A stretch of 64,000 nt of DNA from assembly GCA_902550555.1 (NCBI GenBank), contig CACCZR010000005.1, positions 1-64,000 of the forward strand. The letters run 5' to 3'. The DNA comes from an uncultured SAR116 cluster alpha proteobacterium (GTDB lineage Bacteria; Pseudomonadota; Alphaproteobacteria; Puniceispirillales; Marisalimonadaceae). Made by a program: the position numbers and the translations under genes. Below the pieces are notes generated by a model. It was given only the letters and a program-made list of their open reading frames with translations. It did not search any database and was not told the DNA's origin. Below are positions 23,261 to 31,892 of this stretch, piece after piece. Positions within the stretch are counted from its first letter, which is position 1; each line of letters starts with the position of its first letter.

Positions 23261-24673
23261 GTGAGCGTATTAGAAAAAGAACTCGAAATATCTGACTTTA
23301 ATTTTGAGTTTAATAAAAAAGATGCAGTTACAGAATTAACAAAAGAATTTGGTCAGCAATTTTCTATTTCAAAAAGTGTAAGAGAACAACATACTGATAC
23401 AACAACAATACATCCTTCAAAACTACCTGATGGAGTTGTTTTTGCGGAAAATGAAATAGATGTTAAGAAAACAGTTGAAATTTGTCAAAAATTTAAATGT
23501 CCAATAATTCCTTTTGGTGTTGGCTCATCACTTGAAGGTCATGTCAATGCTTTGTATGGAGGCATTTCGATTGATCTAAATAATATGAATAAAATTTTAC
23601 ACGTCTCTCCTGAGGATGGATACGCAGTTGTACAACCAGGTGTTACTAGAGAACAATTAAATATTTATTTAAGAGATACAGGACTTTTTTTTCCAATTGA
23701 CCCTGGTGCAAATGCATCTTTAGGAGGAATGACAAGTACAAATGCTTCTGGCACGAATGCTGTTAGATATGGAACAATGAAAGATAATGTAATTTCTTTG
23801 AAATGTGTAATGCCTAATGGTGAAATTATTAAAACATCTAATAGAGCAAAAAAAAGTTCAGCTGGTTACGATTTAACAAGATTGATTGTTGGTTCAGAAG
23901 GTACACTTGGTATAATTACAGAAATTACAATTAAACTCTATGGTATACCAGAAGTGATAGCAGGAGGAAGAGTGACATTTCCATCAATAAAAGATGCTAC
24001 TGAAGCAGTAATAATGGTAATACAAGCTGGCATTCCCGTTGCTAGAATAGAATTATTAGATCAAGAACAAGTTAAGGCCTGTAATAACTATTCTAAACTT
24101 AATCTGCCAGAAGAGCCTATATTATTGCTTGAGTTTCATGGAAGTGAATCTTCTGTAAAGGAACAATCTGAGTTTTTTTCAGAGATTGTATCTGATTTTG
24201 GAGGAAATAATTTTGAGTGGACTTCAAATAATGATGAAAGAAACAAGCTCTGGAAAGCAAGACATGACGCTTATTATGCAACTAAATCATGTAAACCTGA
24301 TCTTGAATATATTGCTACTGACGTTTGTGTACCAATTTCAAGGTTGTCAGAGTGTATTGAAAAAACTCAAAATGATTTAATAAAGTATAATTTATTTGGT
24401 CATATTGTTGGACATGTAGGTGATGGAAATTTTCATGTTCAATTAATGGTAGATCCTAAAAATGAGAATGAAATTAAAAACCTAAACAAATTTCTTGATG
24501 ATTTGTCAAAAAGAGCAATTTTACTTGATGGAACTTGCACTGGAGAACATGGAATAGGGCAAGGAAAAAAACAGTACCTTGTTGAAGAATTAGGTGGTTC
24601 AGTCGATTTTATGAAAAATATTAAAAAAGCTTTAGATCCGTTTAACATCATGAATCCAGGAAAGATATTTTAA
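23261..24673 (+). CDS. FAD-linked oxidase, D-lactate dehydrogenase/GlcD-like (copy 1)
   Basis: 470 residues of the vanillyl-alcohol-oxidase-type flavoprotein family. The FAD-binding domain has IIPFGVGSSLEGHV, DPGANASLGGM and VGSEGTLGIITEI. The C-terminal FAD-oxidase domain has HVGDGNFHV and GTCTGEHGIGQGK, the metal/substrate motifs of D-lactate dehydrogenase (cytochrome) and GlcD. It oxidises a D-2-hydroxyacid, passing electrons to the respiratory chain. The start must be GTG (23261) because an in-frame stop lies just upstream. A very similar copy follows 9 bases after its stop. Confidence 0.87.
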   Translation: MSVLEKELEISDFNFEFNKKDAVTELTKEFGQQFSISKSVREQHTDTTTIHPSKLPDGVVFAENEIDVKKTVEICQKFKCPIIPFGVGSSLEGHVNALYGGISIDLNNMNKILHVSPEDGYAVVQPGVTREQLNIYLRDTGLFFPIDPGANASLGGMTSTNASGTNAVRYGTMKDNVISLKCVMPNGEIIKTSNRAKKSSAGYDLTRLIVGSEGTLGIITEITIKLYGIPEVIAGGRVTFPSIKDATEAVIMVIQAGIPVARIELLDQEQVKACNNYSKLNLPEEPILLLEFHGSESSVKEQSEFFSEIVSDFGGNNFEWTSNNDERNKLWKARHDAYYATKSCKPDLEYIATDVCVPISRLSECIEKTQNDLIKYNLFGHIVGHVGDGNFHVQLMVDPKNENEIKNLNKFLDDLSKRAILLDGTCTGEHGIGQGKKQYLVEELGGSVDFMKNIKKALDPFNIMNPGKIF

Positions 24674-24682
24674 AGGTATATT

Positions 24683-26095
24683 ATGTTAGAAAATAAAAAT
24701 CAATGGCTTGGACAGATATACAATAAAAAAAACATACAAGAATGTATTTCAAAAATTAAAGAAAAATATGGTCAGCAGTTTTCTGTGTCCAAAAGTATTA
24801 GGGAACAACATTCACATACAATGACAATTCATGAATCTGAATTACCTGATGGAGTTTTATTTGCTTCAAATAAAAATGATGTGTCAGAAGCAGTAAAGAT
24901 TTGTGATGAATTTGGATGCCCTATTATTCCTTTTGGAGTTGGCTCTTCTTTTGAAGGTCATGTAAATGCTCCATTTGGTGGTTTATCTATAGATTTAAAC
25001 AATATGAATGAAATACTTAATGTATATCAGGATGATTTGTTGGTTACAGTTCAGCCTGGCGTAACAAGAGAGCAGTTGAATACTCATTTAAGGGATACTG
25101 GGTTATTTTTTCCAATTGATCCAGGTGCAAACGCTTCAATCGGAGGCATGTCATCAACAAGAGCATCTGGTACAAATGCTGTTAGATATGGAACTATGAA
25201 AGATAATGTTGTTTCAGTTGAAGCAGTTATGCCTAATGGTGAAATTATTAAAACATCAAATAAAGCAAAGAAAAGTTCAGCTGGTTATGATTTAACAAGA
25301 CTGTTAGTTGGTTCCGAAGGTACGCTTGGTATAATTACAGAAATTACTTTAAAGCTCTATGGTATTCCAGAAATTATAGCGGGTGGTCGTGTATCTTTTT
25401 CTTCTATAAAAGATGCAGCTGACACCGTAATAACTACAATTCAATCAGGTATTCCAATTGCAAGAATTGAGCTTTTAGACGCAATGCAGGTGAAAGCTTG
25501 TAATTTATACTCAAAATTAAGTTTACCAGAAGAACCATTATTACTTTTAGAATTTCATGGAAGTAAAAAATCTGTTGAAGAACAGACAGAACTTTTTGGT
25601 GAAATTGCTACAGATCATGGTGGAAAAAATTATGAATGGACTTCAAATAATGAAGAAAGAAATAAATTATGGAAAGCCAGACATGATGCTTACTGGGCCG
25701 CAAGATCTTACATGCCTGGTACTGAGATGTATTCTACAGATGTTTGTGTGCCAATATCTAAATTATCAGACTGCATTGTCGAGACTGTAAAAGATTTAGA
25801 AGAAAATGATTTAGTTGGACCAATTGCAAGTCATGCAGGTGATGGAAATTTTCATGTTGCGGTAATGCTTGATTTAAATAATAAAAATGAAGTTTCTAAA
25901 TTAGGTCCTTTTTTGGATAGATTGTCTGAAAGGGCAATTAAGATGGATGGAACTTGTACGGGGGAGCACGGAATTGGTCAAGGTAAAAGAAAATATATGT
26001 ATAATGAATTAGGAAATTCTGTTCATGTAATGGAAGCAATAAAAAAGTCCTTTGATCCAAACTTAATTATGAATCCTGGAAAGTTGTTCATCTAA
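24683..26095 (+). CDS. FAD-linked oxidase, D-lactate dehydrogenase/GlcD-like (copy 2)
   Basis: 470 residues, the same length as copy 1 and alignable to it over nearly its whole length with few gaps; only the first 25 residues differ strongly. All family motifs are kept: FGVGSSFEGHV, DPGANASIGGM, GSEGTLGIITEI, SHAGDGNFHV, GTCTGEHGIGQGK. Differences cluster near the active site: copy 1 has GHVGDGNFHVQLMVD where this copy has SHAGDGNFHVAVMLD, and residues around the TDVCVPIS loop change. This suggests different 2-hydroxyacid substrates. Adjacent placement shows a tandem gene duplication. The LysE-type exporter follows after 15 bases. Confidence 0.87.
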   Translation: MLENKNQWLGQIYNKKNIQECISKIKEKYGQQFSVSKSIREQHSHTMTIHESELPDGVLFASNKNDVSEAVKICDEFGCPIIPFGVGSSFEGHVNAPFGGLSIDLNNMNEILNVYQDDLLVTVQPGVTREQLNTHLRDTGLFFPIDPGANASIGGMSSTRASGTNAVRYGTMKDNVVSVEAVMPNGEIIKTSNKAKKSSAGYDLTRLLVGSEGTLGIITEITLKLYGIPEIIAGGRVSFSSIKDAADTVITTIQSGIPIARIELLDAMQVKACNLYSKLSLPEEPLLLLEFHGSKKSVEEQTELFGEIATDHGGKNYEWTSNNEERNKLWKARHDAYWAARSYMPGTEMYSTDVCVPISKLSDCIVETVKDLEENDLVGPIASHAGDGNFHVAVMLDLNNKNEVSKLGPFLDRLSERAIKMDGTCTGEHGIGQGKRKYMYNELGNSVHVMEAIKKSFDPNLIMNPGKLFI

Positions 26096-26740: not shown

Positions 26741-27523
26741 TTAATACATATGATGTCCACCATTTATGGATATAGTTGAGCCAGTAACAAACTGAGAATC
26801 TTCTCTTGCTAAGAATGCTACAGCTCTAGCAATTTCTTGAGGATGACCTAATCTGCCAACAGGAATTGTACTAATTATTTTATCCAACACGTTTTGTGGC
26901 ACTGCAGCGACCATTTCCGTATCTACGTAACCCGGGGCTACAGTATTGGCAGTAATATTATTACGTGCACCTTCTTGAGCAATAGCTTTTGTCATTCCAA
27001 TAATTCCAGCTTTAGCTGCACAATAGTTTATTTGTCCATACTGTCCTGCCTGACCATTGACAGAAGAAATATTGATAATTCTTCCAAACTTTTTTGATGA
27101 CATTTCATCCCAACAAACTTTAGTCATATTAAAAACAGAATTTAGGTTTACATTAATAACATCTTGCCATTGATCAATTGTCATTTTTTTTATTGTGCTA
27201 TCTCTTGTTATACCAGCGTTGTTTACTAATATTGAGAGTGTTCCATACTCAGCAATAATGCTTTTTACAACATTCTCACATTCTTGAAAATTTGAAACAT
27301 CCCATTTAATTGATTTTATATTTGTTTCTCTTGTGAATTTTTTTGCTTGTTCATCATCTGAAGCGTATCCTGCAATAACTGTTGCTCCAGCTCTTTTTAA
27401 AATCTCACAAATACCCCTGCCAATTCCTCTGGTTCCACCTGTTACAAGTGCAACTCTGTCTTCGTTAAAAATAACCTCATCTTTGTTATTTAAACTCATA
27501 TTAGAAAGTTTAATGTCGTCCAA
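26741..27523 (-). CDS. phaB: Acetoacetyl-CoA reductase
   Basis: 260 residues, SDR family, with a 20-residue polar extension before VALVTGGTRGIGRGI. NNAGITRD, the catalytic ISSVNGQ Ser, YCAAK Tyr/Lys, and GHPQEIARAVAFL and TGSTISINGGHHM at the C-terminus are the PhaB signature. It reduces acetoacetyl-CoA to (R)-3-hydroxybutyryl-CoA with NADPH for PHB synthesis. The start is a TTG (27523) backed by a strong AAGGAG; the internal ATG at 27499 has no ribosome site. It is followed on the same strand, upstream, by phaZ. No phaA thiolase lies in the window. Confidence 0.92.
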   Translation of the reverse strand: MDDIKLSNMSLNNKDEVIFNEDRVALVTGGTRGIGRGICEILKRAGATVIAGYASDDEQAKKFTRETNIKSIKWDVSNFQECENVVKSIIAEYGTLSILVNNAGITRDSTIKKMTIDQWQDVINVNLNSVFNMTKVCWDEMSSKKFGRIINISSVNGQAGQYGQINYCAAKAGIIGMTKAIAQEGARNNITANTVAPGYVDTEMVAAVPQNVLDKIISTIPVGRLGHPQEIARAVAFLAREDSQFVTGSTISINGGHHMY

Positions 27524-27658: not shown

Positions 27659-28885
27659 TTAAAATTTATTTATGAAGTTTAAAAACTCTGGACGAATATC
27701 TTCTCTCCAAGCTTTTCCGCTAAAAATACCATAATGTCCAGCATTTTCATGTAAAAAACTAAATTTAATATCATCAGGGACATTTTGTAAAATTTCTAAA
27801 GCTGCAAGACATTGTCCAGGTGCAGAAATGTCATCATTTTTACCTTCAATAATAAAAATAGGGGTATCTCTGATTTGACTTAAATCAAGATGTTGATCTT
27901 CTAGGTAAAATATATTTTTTGCAATTTCTCTTTTTTTAAAAATTCTATTTACTGTTGTTAAATAAAATTCGGCGGTCATATCCATAACAGCTAAATATTC
28001 ATTATAAAATTTATTGTGACGATCATTTTCTGATGAAGTTCCTTCAACTTCTTTGAAAATTTGATCAATAAATGAATTAACATGTGTTTTAAGGTTCATT
28101 GAAATAAAAGAGGATAATTGAATTATACCTGGATAAACAGGTCTACCAACACCTTTATAATTAACACCAACTGGCATTGTCATTGTGTTTTTAAGATAAT
28201 CAAGGCTAAGCTTATTTCCAAAATCTGTTACAGTAGTGGGGTTTGCTTCTGGGTCTATTGGACCTCCAATTAAGGTTAACGTGTTAGGTTTATTTTTATA
28301 ATCATTTTTTATTACAAAAGATAAAGCTGCCAAAGCAAGTGGTGCGGGTTGACAAATGGCCATTACATTTAAATTAGGAGATAAAGTCTGATAAAAATCA
28401 ATTAAATATCTTGTAAAATCTTCAATATCAAATTTCCCATTTGATAATGAAACATCTCTTGCATTTATCCAATCAGTTACAAAAATTTCACAATCTGGTA
28501 ACAGAGATAAGACTGTATTTCTAGTTAAAGTTGCATAATGGCCAGACATAGGGGCAATAATAAGAACTTTTTTATTACTTTTTGTTTTTCGAGTTGTTTC
28601 AAATTTTATCAATTCACAAAATGGTTTTCTTAAAATGGTTTTTTTTGAAACGCTATACTCTTTTCCGTCAGCAACAAAAGAATTTATTCCCCAATCTGGC
28701 TTTGAAATGACTCTCGATAGATAATGTTCTGTTAATTTTCCATATGTATACATAAATTGTGGAATTGGACTTGGGTTTAAACCAAAAACAGGGTTCCCCC
28801 AAAACGTTTTTAAAGAAGAACTAATCCATTCATTGCATTGTCTTGAGGTTTCAAAAAAATCATAAGTTGAAATTTGCATATACAT
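27659..28885 (-). CDS. phaZ: Intracellular polyhydroxyalkanoate depolymerase
   Basis: 408 residues of the intracellular PHB depolymerase family (PhaZ1 type). APMSGHYATLTRNT and VTDWINARDVS are family-specific; the nucleophile is Cys178 in AICQPAP instead of a Ser; Asp in EGKNDDISAPGQC and His in NAGHYGIFSG complete the triad. It hydrolyses native PHB granules to hydroxybutyrate monomers or oligomers in the cytoplasm. It is divergent from phaC across 54 bases, and lies 135 bases upstream of phaB on the same strand. Confidence 0.92.
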   Translation of the reverse strand: MYMQISTYDFFETSRQCNEWISSSLKTFWGNPVFGLNPSPIPQFMYTYGKLTEHYLSRVISKPDWGINSFVADGKEYSVSKKTILRKPFCELIKFETTRKTKSNKKVLIIAPMSGHYATLTRNTVLSLLPDCEIFVTDWINARDVSLSNGKFDIEDFTRYLIDFYQTLSPNLNVMAICQPAPLALAALSFVIKNDYKNKPNTLTLIGGPIDPEANPTTVTDFGNKLSLDYLKNTMTMPVGVNYKGVGRPVYPGIIQLSSFISMNLKTHVNSFIDQIFKEVEGTSSENDRHNKFYNEYLAVMDMTAEFYLTTVNRIFKKREIAKNIFYLEDQHLDLSQIRDTPIFIIEGKNDDISAPGQCLAALEILQNVPDDIKFSFLHENAGHYGIFSGKAWREDIRPEFLNFINKF

Positions 28886-28939: not shown

Positions 28940-30709
28940 ATGAATGATGATAATAAAAATAATGAATTTGACGAATTACAAGAAAATTTAAATAGAATAG
29001 ATTCGCTCACAAAAAGGTTAGTATTATCATTAGCTAATAAAAATAACGATACTGATTATTCAAAACCAAACCAAGAACTATATTATAAAGCAGCATCTAA
29101 ATATTTTTCTGAGATGCTTTTAAACCCATCAAGATTAATAGAAAATCAAGTTAAATTTTATAAATCTACTCTTCAAATATGGTCTGATGCTCAAAAAGAT
29201 TTTCTAAATCAAACTGAAAACAAAGCTGATGCTTCAGACAGAAGGTTCAAAGAAAGCACTTGGGAGAACAACCCGTATTTCAAAATGATTAAAAATCAAT
29301 ATATCACATCGTCTAGCATTATTGAAGAAACTGTCAATAGTATAGAGGGTTTATCAAAACCCGATAAGAAACAAATAAGTTTTTTTACTAAACAAATGGT
29401 AGATTTTTTCTCACCAACTAATTTCTTAGGTACTAATCCGGAAGCAATTAAAGAAGCAATAGAGACTAAAGGCAAGTCGCTTGTAGACGGCCTTGAGAAT
29501 TTGGTGAATGACTTAGAAAAAAATGATGGAGAGTTAAACGTAACTTTAACTGATGATAATGCATTTGAAGTTGGAAAAAATATTGCTCAATCAAAAGGAT
29601 CAGTAATATTTCAGAATGAACTCTTTCAACTTATTCATTATGAACCTGTGTCTAAAAAATGTTATTCAACACCCTTACTGATTATACCTCCATGGATTAA
29701 TAAATTTTATATTTTAGACTTAAAGCATGAAAATAGCTTTATTCAATTTTGTTTAAAGAAAAATTTATCTGTTTTCGTTATTTCATGGGTAAATCCAGGA
29801 AATGAGCATAAAAATGTTTCATTTGAAGATTATATTGATAAAGGTTTATTAAAAGCAGCTGATATTATCAAACGTTATTGTAGACAAGATCAGATCAATA
29901 CTATTGGTTATTGTATTGGAGGAACCTTACTAGCTTCAACTTTAGCATACCTAAATAAGAAAAATATTAAATTTATTAAATCAAGTACCTTTTTTACAAC
30001 ACTTACAGATTTTGAGGATCCAGGAGATTTATCTATTTTTGTAACAGATGAATATTTATCATCAATAAATAAGCAAATTGAAAAGTTTGGTTATATGGAA
30101 GGAAGTTTCCTTGCAAAAACTTTTAGTTTTCTAAGATCAAACGATTTAGTGTATGGACCCGCCATAAAATCATACCTTATGGGAAAAAAACCACCACCAT
30201 TTGATTTATTATATTGGAATAGTGACTCAACTAATTTACCTGGAGTTATGGCTTTAGAATACTTAGAAAATTTTTATCAAAAAAATATGCTTTCAAAAGG
30301 TAAATTAAAGGTTTTTGATGAAATCGTATCATTAGAAGATATTAATCTGCCAATTTTTGCTGTTGCAACTCATACTGATCACATCGCTCCATGGAAATCT
30401 TCTTTTTTTGGTTTAAATAAAACAACTGGAGAAAAGAAATTTATCTTAGCAGGAAGTGGTCACATTGCTGGTATAATAAATCCAGAAAACTCAGATAAAT
30501 ATGGATATTGGACCAATGAGACAAAAATGGAAGATATTAATGAATGGTTCTATAAAGCAAAGAAAAATGAGGGATCTTGGTGGGGTGAATGGGCATCTTG
30601 GATACAAAAGATTAGTGGCTCTTTAGATGAGATTAATTTTAATCACAATAATGAATTTCAGATAATTGAAAATGCCCCAGGGTCTTATGTAAAAAAGAAA
30701 TTTAAATAA
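28940..30709 (+). CDS. phaC: Class I poly(3-hydroxyalkanoate) synthase
   Basis: 589 residues, the usual size of class I PhaC. The N-terminal domain (about 45-215) holds the PhaC_N motifs NPYFKMIKNQY and FFSPTNFLGTNPEA. The catalytic alpha/beta-hydrolase domain has PPWINKFYILDL, nucleophile Cys325 in GYCIGG, Asp480 in THTDHIAPW and His508 in GSGHIAG. It polymerises (R)-3-hydroxybutyryl-CoA on granule surfaces. The phasin promoter starts 24 bases after its stop. The neighbours phaB, phaZ, phasin and phaR form a complete granule locus apart from phaA. Confidence 0.95.
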   Translation: MNDDNKNNEFDELQENLNRIDSLTKRLVLSLANKNNDTDYSKPNQELYYKAASKYFSEMLLNPSRLIENQVKFYKSTLQIWSDAQKDFLNQTENKADASDRRFKESTWENNPYFKMIKNQYITSSSIIEETVNSIEGLSKPDKKQISFFTKQMVDFFSPTNFLGTNPEAIKEAIETKGKSLVDGLENLVNDLEKNDGELNVTLTDDNAFEVGKNIAQSKGSVIFQNELFQLIHYEPVSKKCYSTPLLIIPPWINKFYILDLKHENSFIQFCLKKNLSVFVISWVNPGNEHKNVSFEDYIDKGLLKAADIIKRYCRQDQINTIGYCIGGTLLASTLAYLNKKNIKFIKSSTFFTTLTDFEDPGDLSIFVTDEYLSSINKQIEKFGYMEGSFLAKTFSFLRSNDLVYGPAIKSYLMGKKPPPFDLLYWNSDSTNLPGVMALEYLENFYQKNMLSKGKLKVFDEIVSLEDINLPIFAVATHTDHIAPWKSSFFGLNKTTGEKKFILAGSGHIAGIINPENSDKYGYWTNETKMEDINEWFYKAKKNEGSWWGEWASWIQKISGSLDEINFNHNNEFQIIENAPGSYVKKKFK

Positions 30710-30733
30710 TTTCGCATTTGCAGAAAAATATAC

Positions 30734-30777
30734 TTGACATTTCTGCATTGCAGTATATATATATTGCAATGCAGAAA
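30734..30777 (+). promoter_or_regulatory. Phasin promoter with palindromic PhaR-type operator
   Basis: A perfect -35 box TTGACA (30734-30739) is followed by an A/T-rich -10 region (about 30756-30765). A perfect inverted repeat with 13-base arms (30740-30752 and 30765-30777, 12-base centre) overlies both. The left arm contains CTGC-ATT-GCAG (30743-30753), the CTGC-N3-GCAG pattern reported for PhaR of Paracoccus; the right arm has the near match TTGCAATGCAG (30764-30774). A further TTGCAG half site lies just upstream (about 30719). PhaR is encoded two genes downstream, so repression of phasin by PhaR is the natural reading. Confidence 0.72.
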
Positions 30778-30792
30778 AAAAGGAGTGTGCAT

Positions 30793-31230
30793 ATGTTTAG
30801 TTTTGACGATTATAAAAAGAATTTTGAAGAAATGTTTTCTAAGAGCCCAATTAACTTAGAAGATTTTTACAAAAGTGCTAATGAATACAACTCTAAGTTT
30901 TCAAAGATAGCATTTGATACTTTCAAAAAAAATGTTGAAGTATCTCAATCTTGGACTAAAGAAACAATTGGTGGTATGGATAAACTTGTAAAGCCACAAT
31001 CAAAACCAGAAGATTACGTAAAAGTAGCTACTGATTTTGTAACTGAACAAGCCCAAACTTCACCAAAATATATGTCTGAATTTGCTGAAATAGCAAAGAA
31101 GACTCAATTAGATACAATTGAATTATTTATGCAGGCTGGAAAAGAGGCTAAGGAAGAAATGAACAAAGTTTCAAAAAAAGCAACTGCTCCTAAACAAACA
31201 CCTGCTGCTGAAACAGAAGTATCAGAATAA
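30793..31230 (+). CDS. Phasin (PHB granule-associated protein)
   Basis: 145 residues. It begins MFSFDDYKKNFEEMF and continues as amphipathic helices with the phasin-family spacing (VEVSQSW-type segment, KVATDFVTEQAQTSP), ending in a Lys/Ala/Thr-rich tail. Phasins coat PHB granules and control their size. An in-frame TTG at 30718 would add 25 residues, but it lies inside the promoter/operator; the ATG at 30793 has AGGAG 7 bases before it and is clearly the start. A hairpin terminator follows the stop, separating it from phaR. Confidence 0.87.
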   Translation: MFSFDDYKKNFEEMFSKSPINLEDFYKSANEYNSKFSKIAFDTFKKNVEVSQSWTKETIGGMDKLVKPQSKPEDYVKVATDFVTEQAQTSPKYMSEFAEIAKKTQLDTIELFMQAGKEAKEEMNKVSKKATAPKQTPAAETEVSE

Positions 31231-31244
31231 GTTATCATAATATT

Positions 31245-31272
31245 AAAGGTGGTTAATTTACCACCTTTTTAT
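31245..31272 (+). terminator. Rho-independent terminator after phasin gene
   Basis: A 9-base perfect stem (AAAGGTGGT at 31245-31253 paired with ACCACCTTT at 31260-31268), a 6-base loop and a T run beginning at 31266 lie 14 bases after the phasin stop. It is the clearest intrinsic terminator in the window and would make phasin a monocistronic, highly expressed unit. Confidence 0.8.
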
Positions 31273-31307
31273 TTATTGAAGATTAATTATATATTATTTA
31301 ATCTACT

Positions 31308-31892
31308 ATGATGACTGAAAAAATAATAATCACAAAATATTCAAGTAGAAGACTCTATAACACTCAAACAAGTGAATATGTAACACTTGATCAAATAGCT
31401 GATTTCATTAGGGATGGTAAAGAAGTCCAAATTATTGACAAAGAAACAAATGAAGATGTTACAAATCAATATCTACTTCAAATAATATCAGATTATGAAA
31501 TTAAAAAAGGTGCATCAATTCCTAAAGATATTTTAACAGAAATAATTAAGGGATATAGTGATGCATCTAAAAATTTCATGCCTGAGATTTTGTCACAAAC
31601 TTTTAACTTCATGAAAGAAAATCAAGAAAAGTTTTTAAAAAGCTTTAATTCTAATAATGATAAAAACACTGAAACTTTAAAAAATTGGCAAGATTTTCAA
31701 TCTCAAATGATGTCAAATATTATGTATCCATGGTATGATAATTTAAATACTGAAAACGCAACTAAAACTGCCAGATCTGAAGAAGCATCAAAAGAAGAGG
31801 CGAAAAAAGAAAACTACAAATCTGATATTGATGTTATGAAAGAACAAATTGCTTCACTACAAAAGCAATTGAATGAAAAAAATAAAGAATAA
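31308..31892 (+). CDS. phaR: Polyhydroxyalkanoate synthesis repressor PhaR
   Basis: 194 residues. The N-terminal PHB/PHA accumulation regulator DNA-binding domain (about 1-62) has IITKYSSRRLYNTQTSEYVTL and IADFIRDGKEVQIIDKETN, which is diagnostic. The middle part carries the PHB-binding repeat region and the tail is a charged coiled coil (KEQIASLQKQL). PhaR represses phasin and its own gene until it is titrated onto nascent PHB granules. A matching operator lies in the phasin promoter upstream. Two adjacent ATGs (31308 and 31311) are possible starts. Confidence 0.92.
   Translation: MMTEKIIITKYSSRRLYNTQTSEYVTLDQIADFIRDGKEVQIIDKETNEDVTNQYLLQIISDYEIKKGASIPKDILTEIIKGYSDASKNFMPEILSQTFNFMKENQEKFLKSFNSNNDKNTETLKNWQDFQSQMMSNIMYPWYDNLNTENATKTARSEEASKEEAKKENYKSDIDVMKEQIASLQKQLNEKNKE

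Follow-up and report, generated by a model that had tools for sequence, protein, structure and literature searches.

The PHA locus and the phasin promoter

The window (the whole stretch of DNA that was analysed, 64,000 nucleotides) has a G+C content of 30%, and its nearest named relatives are SAR116 cluster genomes. It carries a PHA locus with the gene order phaB-like, phaZ, phaC, phasin, and phaR, composed of the following features:

26741..27523, minus strand: phaB-type acetoacetyl-CoA reductase (TIGR01829, profile match)
27659..28885, minus strand: phaZ, PHA depolymerase (TIGR01849, profile match)
28940..30709, plus strand: phaC, class I PHA synthase (TIGR01838, profile match)
30793..31230, plus strand: phasin gene (PF09361, domain match)
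31245..31268, plus strand: terminator-like hairpin in the phasin–phaR gap (terminator scan)
31308..31892, plus strand: phaR (PF07879 and TIGR01848, profile matches)

The initial annotation had placed phaR downstream of the phasin gene, and the profile searches confirm this assignment. The protein scores 111.2 bits against TIGR01848 (curated cut-off 109.45) and 80.5 bits against the DNA-binding domain PF07879 (cut-off 25); its C-terminal match to PF05233, at 22.8 bits, lies under the cut-off of 27. A search of the PDB for relatives of PhaR returned none at E <= 1, and a search of viral contigs for phasins returned none either. The phaR gene would be transcribed either by read-through from the phasin promoter, which would result in indirect autoregulation, or from a promoter of its own. 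The hairpin in the gap between the two genes (31231-31307) shows paired changes in relatives (GGTGG/CCACC to GGCGG/CCGCC in L034-L037), and a long hairpin unlike this one occupies the gap in the sister genus g2. Elsewhere in the window, at 23261-26095, two adjoining and similar 470-aa open frames, which by eye look like FAD-linked oxidases, are probably a tandem duplication.

The stop codon of phaC ends at 30709 and the ATG of the phasin gene is at 30793. The elements assigned in the region between them (30710-30792) are:

30713..30722, plus strand: O0, possible decayed upstream site CGCATTTGCA, with a core one base too long, proposed from alignment
30734..30739, plus strand: -35 hexamer TTGACA, of which TTGA is invariant across SAR116 homologues
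30743..30753, plus strand: O1, PhaR-type site CTGCATTGCAG, an exact CTGCNNNGCAG with core TGCATTGCA at 30744-30752, in the -35/-10 spacer
30754..30763, plus strand: TATATATATA, which holds the likely -10 element, 16-18 nt past TTGACA, judged from sequence only
30764..30774, plus strand: O2, PhaR-type site TTGCAATGCAG, with core TGCAATGCA at 30765-30773, over the expected transcription start
30780..30785, plus strand: ribosome binding site AAGGAG

A strict promoter scan of the window made no call for a -10 element in 30754-30763, where the likely -10 is not a consensus match. O0 aligns near TGCAGTTGCA of g2 and near the intact upstream CGCATTGCG of L148, a locus of SAR116 family f4.

Two palindromic sites within one inverted repeat

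The perfect palindrome with 13-base arms and a 12-base spacer described in the initial annotation is present as TTTCTGCATTGCA - GTATATATATAT - TGCAATGCAGAAA (30740-30777, 38 bp). It directly follows TTGACA and precedes AAGGAG, all between phaC and the phasin gene, and it is the only inverted repeat of the window with arms of at least 13 bp and a spacer of at most 20 bp. We shuffled the whole window 150 times, preserving dinucleotides: the shuffled windows contained a mean of 0.21 such repeats, or 0.007 when at least 5 G/C per arm were demanded, and the pair of TGCANTGCA sites occurred in 0 of the 150, i.e., there are two sites in one promoter where none is expected. The palindrome is thus far above chance level. 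The pattern CTGC-N3-GCAG reported inside it is also there, with one exact match (30743-30753) and one carrying a single mismatch (30764-30774).

The reading of the large palindrome as the operator itself is not supported. The cores of O1 and O2 are both TGCA-N-TGCA, each already palindromic, and they are 21 bp apart from centre to centre. Because two palindromic PhaR-type sites always make an inverted repeat, most of the 13-bp arm follows from their presence; beyond the two sites, the palindrome adds only a flank common to both arms (TTTC/GAAA) and the central base. The functional unit is most likely two separate sites of 9-11 bp rather than one palindrome with 13-bp arms. A palindromic core YGCRNYGCR lies near the -35, -10, and +1 of the phasin gene twice (30744-30752 and 30765-30773), and we predict with high confidence that the phasin promoter carries a double PhaR operator, belonging to an ordinary PhaR–phasin repression circuit.

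The assembled genome (1.6 Mb, 69% complete) contains 39 YGCRNYGCR sites, of which 37 are inside open frames; O1 and O2 are the only intergenic ones, and phaR itself is not preceded by a separate core site. By the strict core, the phasin promoter is the sole intergenic target, and the regulon perhaps consists of this one promoter, although less stringent sites or sequence absent from the assembly could alter the picture. Two intergenic-looking candidates elsewhere were rejected. In L051, a TGCATTGCA upstream of a malic-enzyme-like gene, considered as a second target, lies in a mutS-like frame on the opposite strand, and it also occurs in same-genus genomes where PhaR was not found; in L162, a degenerate site is inside a 105-aa open frame.

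Conservation in SAR116 and in the wider Alphaproteobacteria

We compared the locus with those of four other genomes of the same genus, g1 (L021-L023, L027 and L034-L037 are apparently the same genomes in two collections and were counted as four). Identity to these loci is 97.6-98.8% in the promoter (30710-30792), 82-85% in the phasin–phaR gap, 88-89% in phaR, 91-92% in phaC, and 93-94% in the phasin gene; part of the conservation reflects shared descent, the genomes being close relatives. The sole promoter changes are at 30716 and at 30769, the free central base of O2. The latter, A to G in the other members of the genus, disrupts the 13-bp arm without touching either core: O1 is identical across all same-genus loci and the core of O2 is kept as TGCAGTGCA in every other one.

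Beyond the genus, the two sites part ways. The sister genus g2 keeps O1 as TGCA[A/T]TGCG (TTTCTGCAATGCGG or TTTCTGCATTGCGG), lacks O2, and has a degenerate element upstream of the -35. In L148, a phasin-like gene, identified by eye from its position and an MFTF-type start, lies directly 3' of phaC; its promoter has a TTGATT box with CGCATTGCG on the upstream side and TGCATTGCG on the downstream side, 28 bp apart, and no more than a weak trace in the place of O2. Every phaC–phasin promoter that was read in family f1 of SAR116, from five genomes of genus g1 and four of g2, has O1, as does that of L148; O2 is strong only in g1. Across the order, exact TGCANTGCA pairs within the spacing limit occur at the phasin promoter in all five g1 genomes that have PhaR; the one other pair, located in a gene of genome G020 (L053), was rejected as an operator because it is within a 596-residue open frame. 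An order-level search centred on G397 (10 genomes) added nothing. The presence of the palindrome in close relatives, proposed earlier as a check, is thus seen for both cores in the four same-genus genomes, but the 13-base arm is broken there and O2 is not conserved beyond the genus. Because g2 and L148 keep O1, with a partner upstream of the -35 and O2 missing or weak, O1 is the constant element and the partner site the one that moves. The best reading includes operator turnover at the PhaR–phasin promoter. A more specific scenario, which we advance tentatively, is that PhaR of genus g1 is now dedicated to one promoter, where the upstream partner decayed, a strong site arose over the start, and O1 was held fixed.

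The distribution of PhaR in SAR116 is uneven. Among the incomplete genomes of g1 (G000-G012), PhaR was detected in 5/13 and phaC over the cut-off in 4/13; PHB storage may be patchy, or the genes may have been lost to assembly gaps. In the family f4 loci L016, L017, L018, and L019, a second PhaR-like gene lies close to a folB-like one. Upstream of this PhaR-like gene, all four loci carry two YGCRNYGCR sites ~52-53 bp apart, in the stretch that separates it from a divergently oriented methyltransferase-like gene (e.g., L016:1775 and 1828). Class I phaC was not found in G039 and G055 (each ~99% complete), so this second PhaR of f4 may have a role other than in PHB storage, or may control its own gene. 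In family f3, the PhaR-like genes of L028 and L030 adjoin a gene that resembles hydroxyacylglutathione hydrolase (PF16123 was found in L028); these very AT-rich genomes are 83-86% complete, phaC was not found in them, and the loci have no YGCRNYGCR site.

In the wider class, 34 of 385 alphaproteobacterial genomes contain exact TGCANTGCA pairs within this spacing limit. At 12 loci, one of the two sites comes no more than 9 bases past a TTGA[CA]- or CTGAC-like box, and other alphaproteobacterial phasin promoters repeatedly show a PhaR-type site 2-10 nt past a TTGAC-like box. The proteins downstream of such loci match PF09361 in 9 of the 10 tested (two slightly under the cut-off), the tenth being a phaB-like reductase. 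The layout of L072 is nearly that of the window, with TTGACA, a site starting 10 nt on, a second site 21 bp further, and then a phasin gene.

The spacing of the pairs clusters at 17-23 bp in both genome samples that we used. The initial annotation suggested that the spacing sets two binding sites on the same face of the DNA, and an addition to the double-operator reading would be selection for the 21 bp, i.e., two turns, because it lets a pair of PhaR units bind cooperatively on one face. Spacings of 20-22 bp are over-represented in the first (class) sample (12/34 vs 3.3 expected, the window being left out of the count). However, the second sample gives 7/41 vs 4.0 expected (P ~0.10). Its peaks are at 19 and 27-28 bp, and members of one family in it are not independent; the pairs of family f26 are mostly 26-28 bp apart. 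The spacings of 18-19 and 26-28 bp seen elsewhere are out of phase. Since the finer 20-22 bp peak is not clearly reproduced and the published Sinorhizobium meliloti pairs are 18 and 28 bp apart, same-face spacing is weak at best as a general rule, and we consider selection for cooperative binding possible but rather unlikely.

Comparison with known PhaR systems and alternative readings

In other species, PhaR represses phasin genes from sites of this kind and leaves the DNA when PHB is present (PMC12542648, PMC6201568, PMC12849132, PMC9049629). The PhaR (AniA) of S. meliloti has two palindromic YGCRNYGCR sites with AT-rich flanks in each phasin promoter (phaP1 and phaP2), and the phaP2 promoter showed efficient PhaR binding in gel shift; its site has the same core as O1, TGCATTGCA (PMC12542648). 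The S. meliloti pairs flank the -35, whereas the second strong site here is 21 bp past O1 and covers the expected start. The consensus CTGCNNNGCAG, for which the initial annotation named Paracoccus, is credited in the same paper to PhaR of Rhodobacter sphaeroides; it is matched exactly by O1 and with one mismatch by O2 (T for C at the first base). O2 (TGCAATGCAGAA) fits every position of the consensus of Bradyrhizobium diazoefficiens, TGCRNYGCASMA, which was derived from footprints and an alignment (PMC6201568). This species has PhaR sites at phaP1 and phaP4, and its phaP1 promoter resembles that of the window in having a site 6 bp after the -35. Its PhaR regulon is large (PMC6201568), in contrast to the assembled genome studied here, in which only the phasin promoter has intergenic core sites. 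Ralstonia eutropha phaP1 likewise has a palindromic TGCR-N-YGCA core, with one site around the transcription start, but its other promoter site is directly upstream of the -35, a third is proposed in the gene, and none is described between the -35 and -10 (PMC12849132).

Two other readings of the palindrome were weighed. In the first, the whole palindrome would be the recognition unit of one PhaR multimer, with the 13-bp arms as half-sites; the arms are perfect in the window, but a single base change in the other genus members breaks the arm while both 9-bp cores are kept, relatives carry single or differently spaced sites, and at S. meliloti phaP1 and phaP2 either site alone suffices for binding (PMC12542648), so that we regard this as very improbable. 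In the second, the palindrome would be no DNA operator but a hairpin in the RNA, closing the phaC transcript at its 3' end as terminator or mRNA stabiliser, which we likewise regard as very improbable: the plus-strand RNA folds to -30.7 kcal/mol (z -4.9), 30 nt past the phaC stop, and a G-U pair would remain after the change at 30769, but any two PhaR sites fold into a hairpin because each is a palindrome, a run of A rather than T follows on the plus strand (AAATGTC on the minus strand), g2 and L148 keep O1 without a strong O2 arm, and the expected start in the right arm would leave the phasin mRNA without the hairpin. An intrinsic terminator at the palindrome was rejected for want of a T run, and the terminator scan finds only the hairpin at 31245-31268.

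Under the double-operator reading, PhaR bound in the absence of PHB granules to O1, in the -35/-10 spacer, and to O2, at the start site, would block RNA polymerase. When PHB appears, PhaR would be drawn onto the granule surface and the promoter would open; the phasin then made would coat the granule, and the displaced PhaR would repress again. Binding, repression, and release by PHB are here extrapolated from other species.

The proposal of a PhaR-type operator at the phasin promoter, which would keep the known PhaR circuit in an AT-rich genome, gains strong support from the motif, its placement, the adjoining phaR, the conservation in the genus, and the recurrence before other alphaproteobacterial phasin genes, but taking the large palindrome as the unit does not. 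We found no literature joining PhaR or phasins with SAR116 among open-licence papers. As far as sequence comparison can tell, a control circuit already known is found here in a new organism, whose second site is placed unlike that of its nearest relatives. It would extend the PhaR–phasin circuit to an AT-rich marine lineage, SAR116, and the comparison points to the part of the operator that is held constant, the site just after the -35, and to the part that moves. It may also offer a natural small PhaR regulon, in contrast to the large rhizobial ones.
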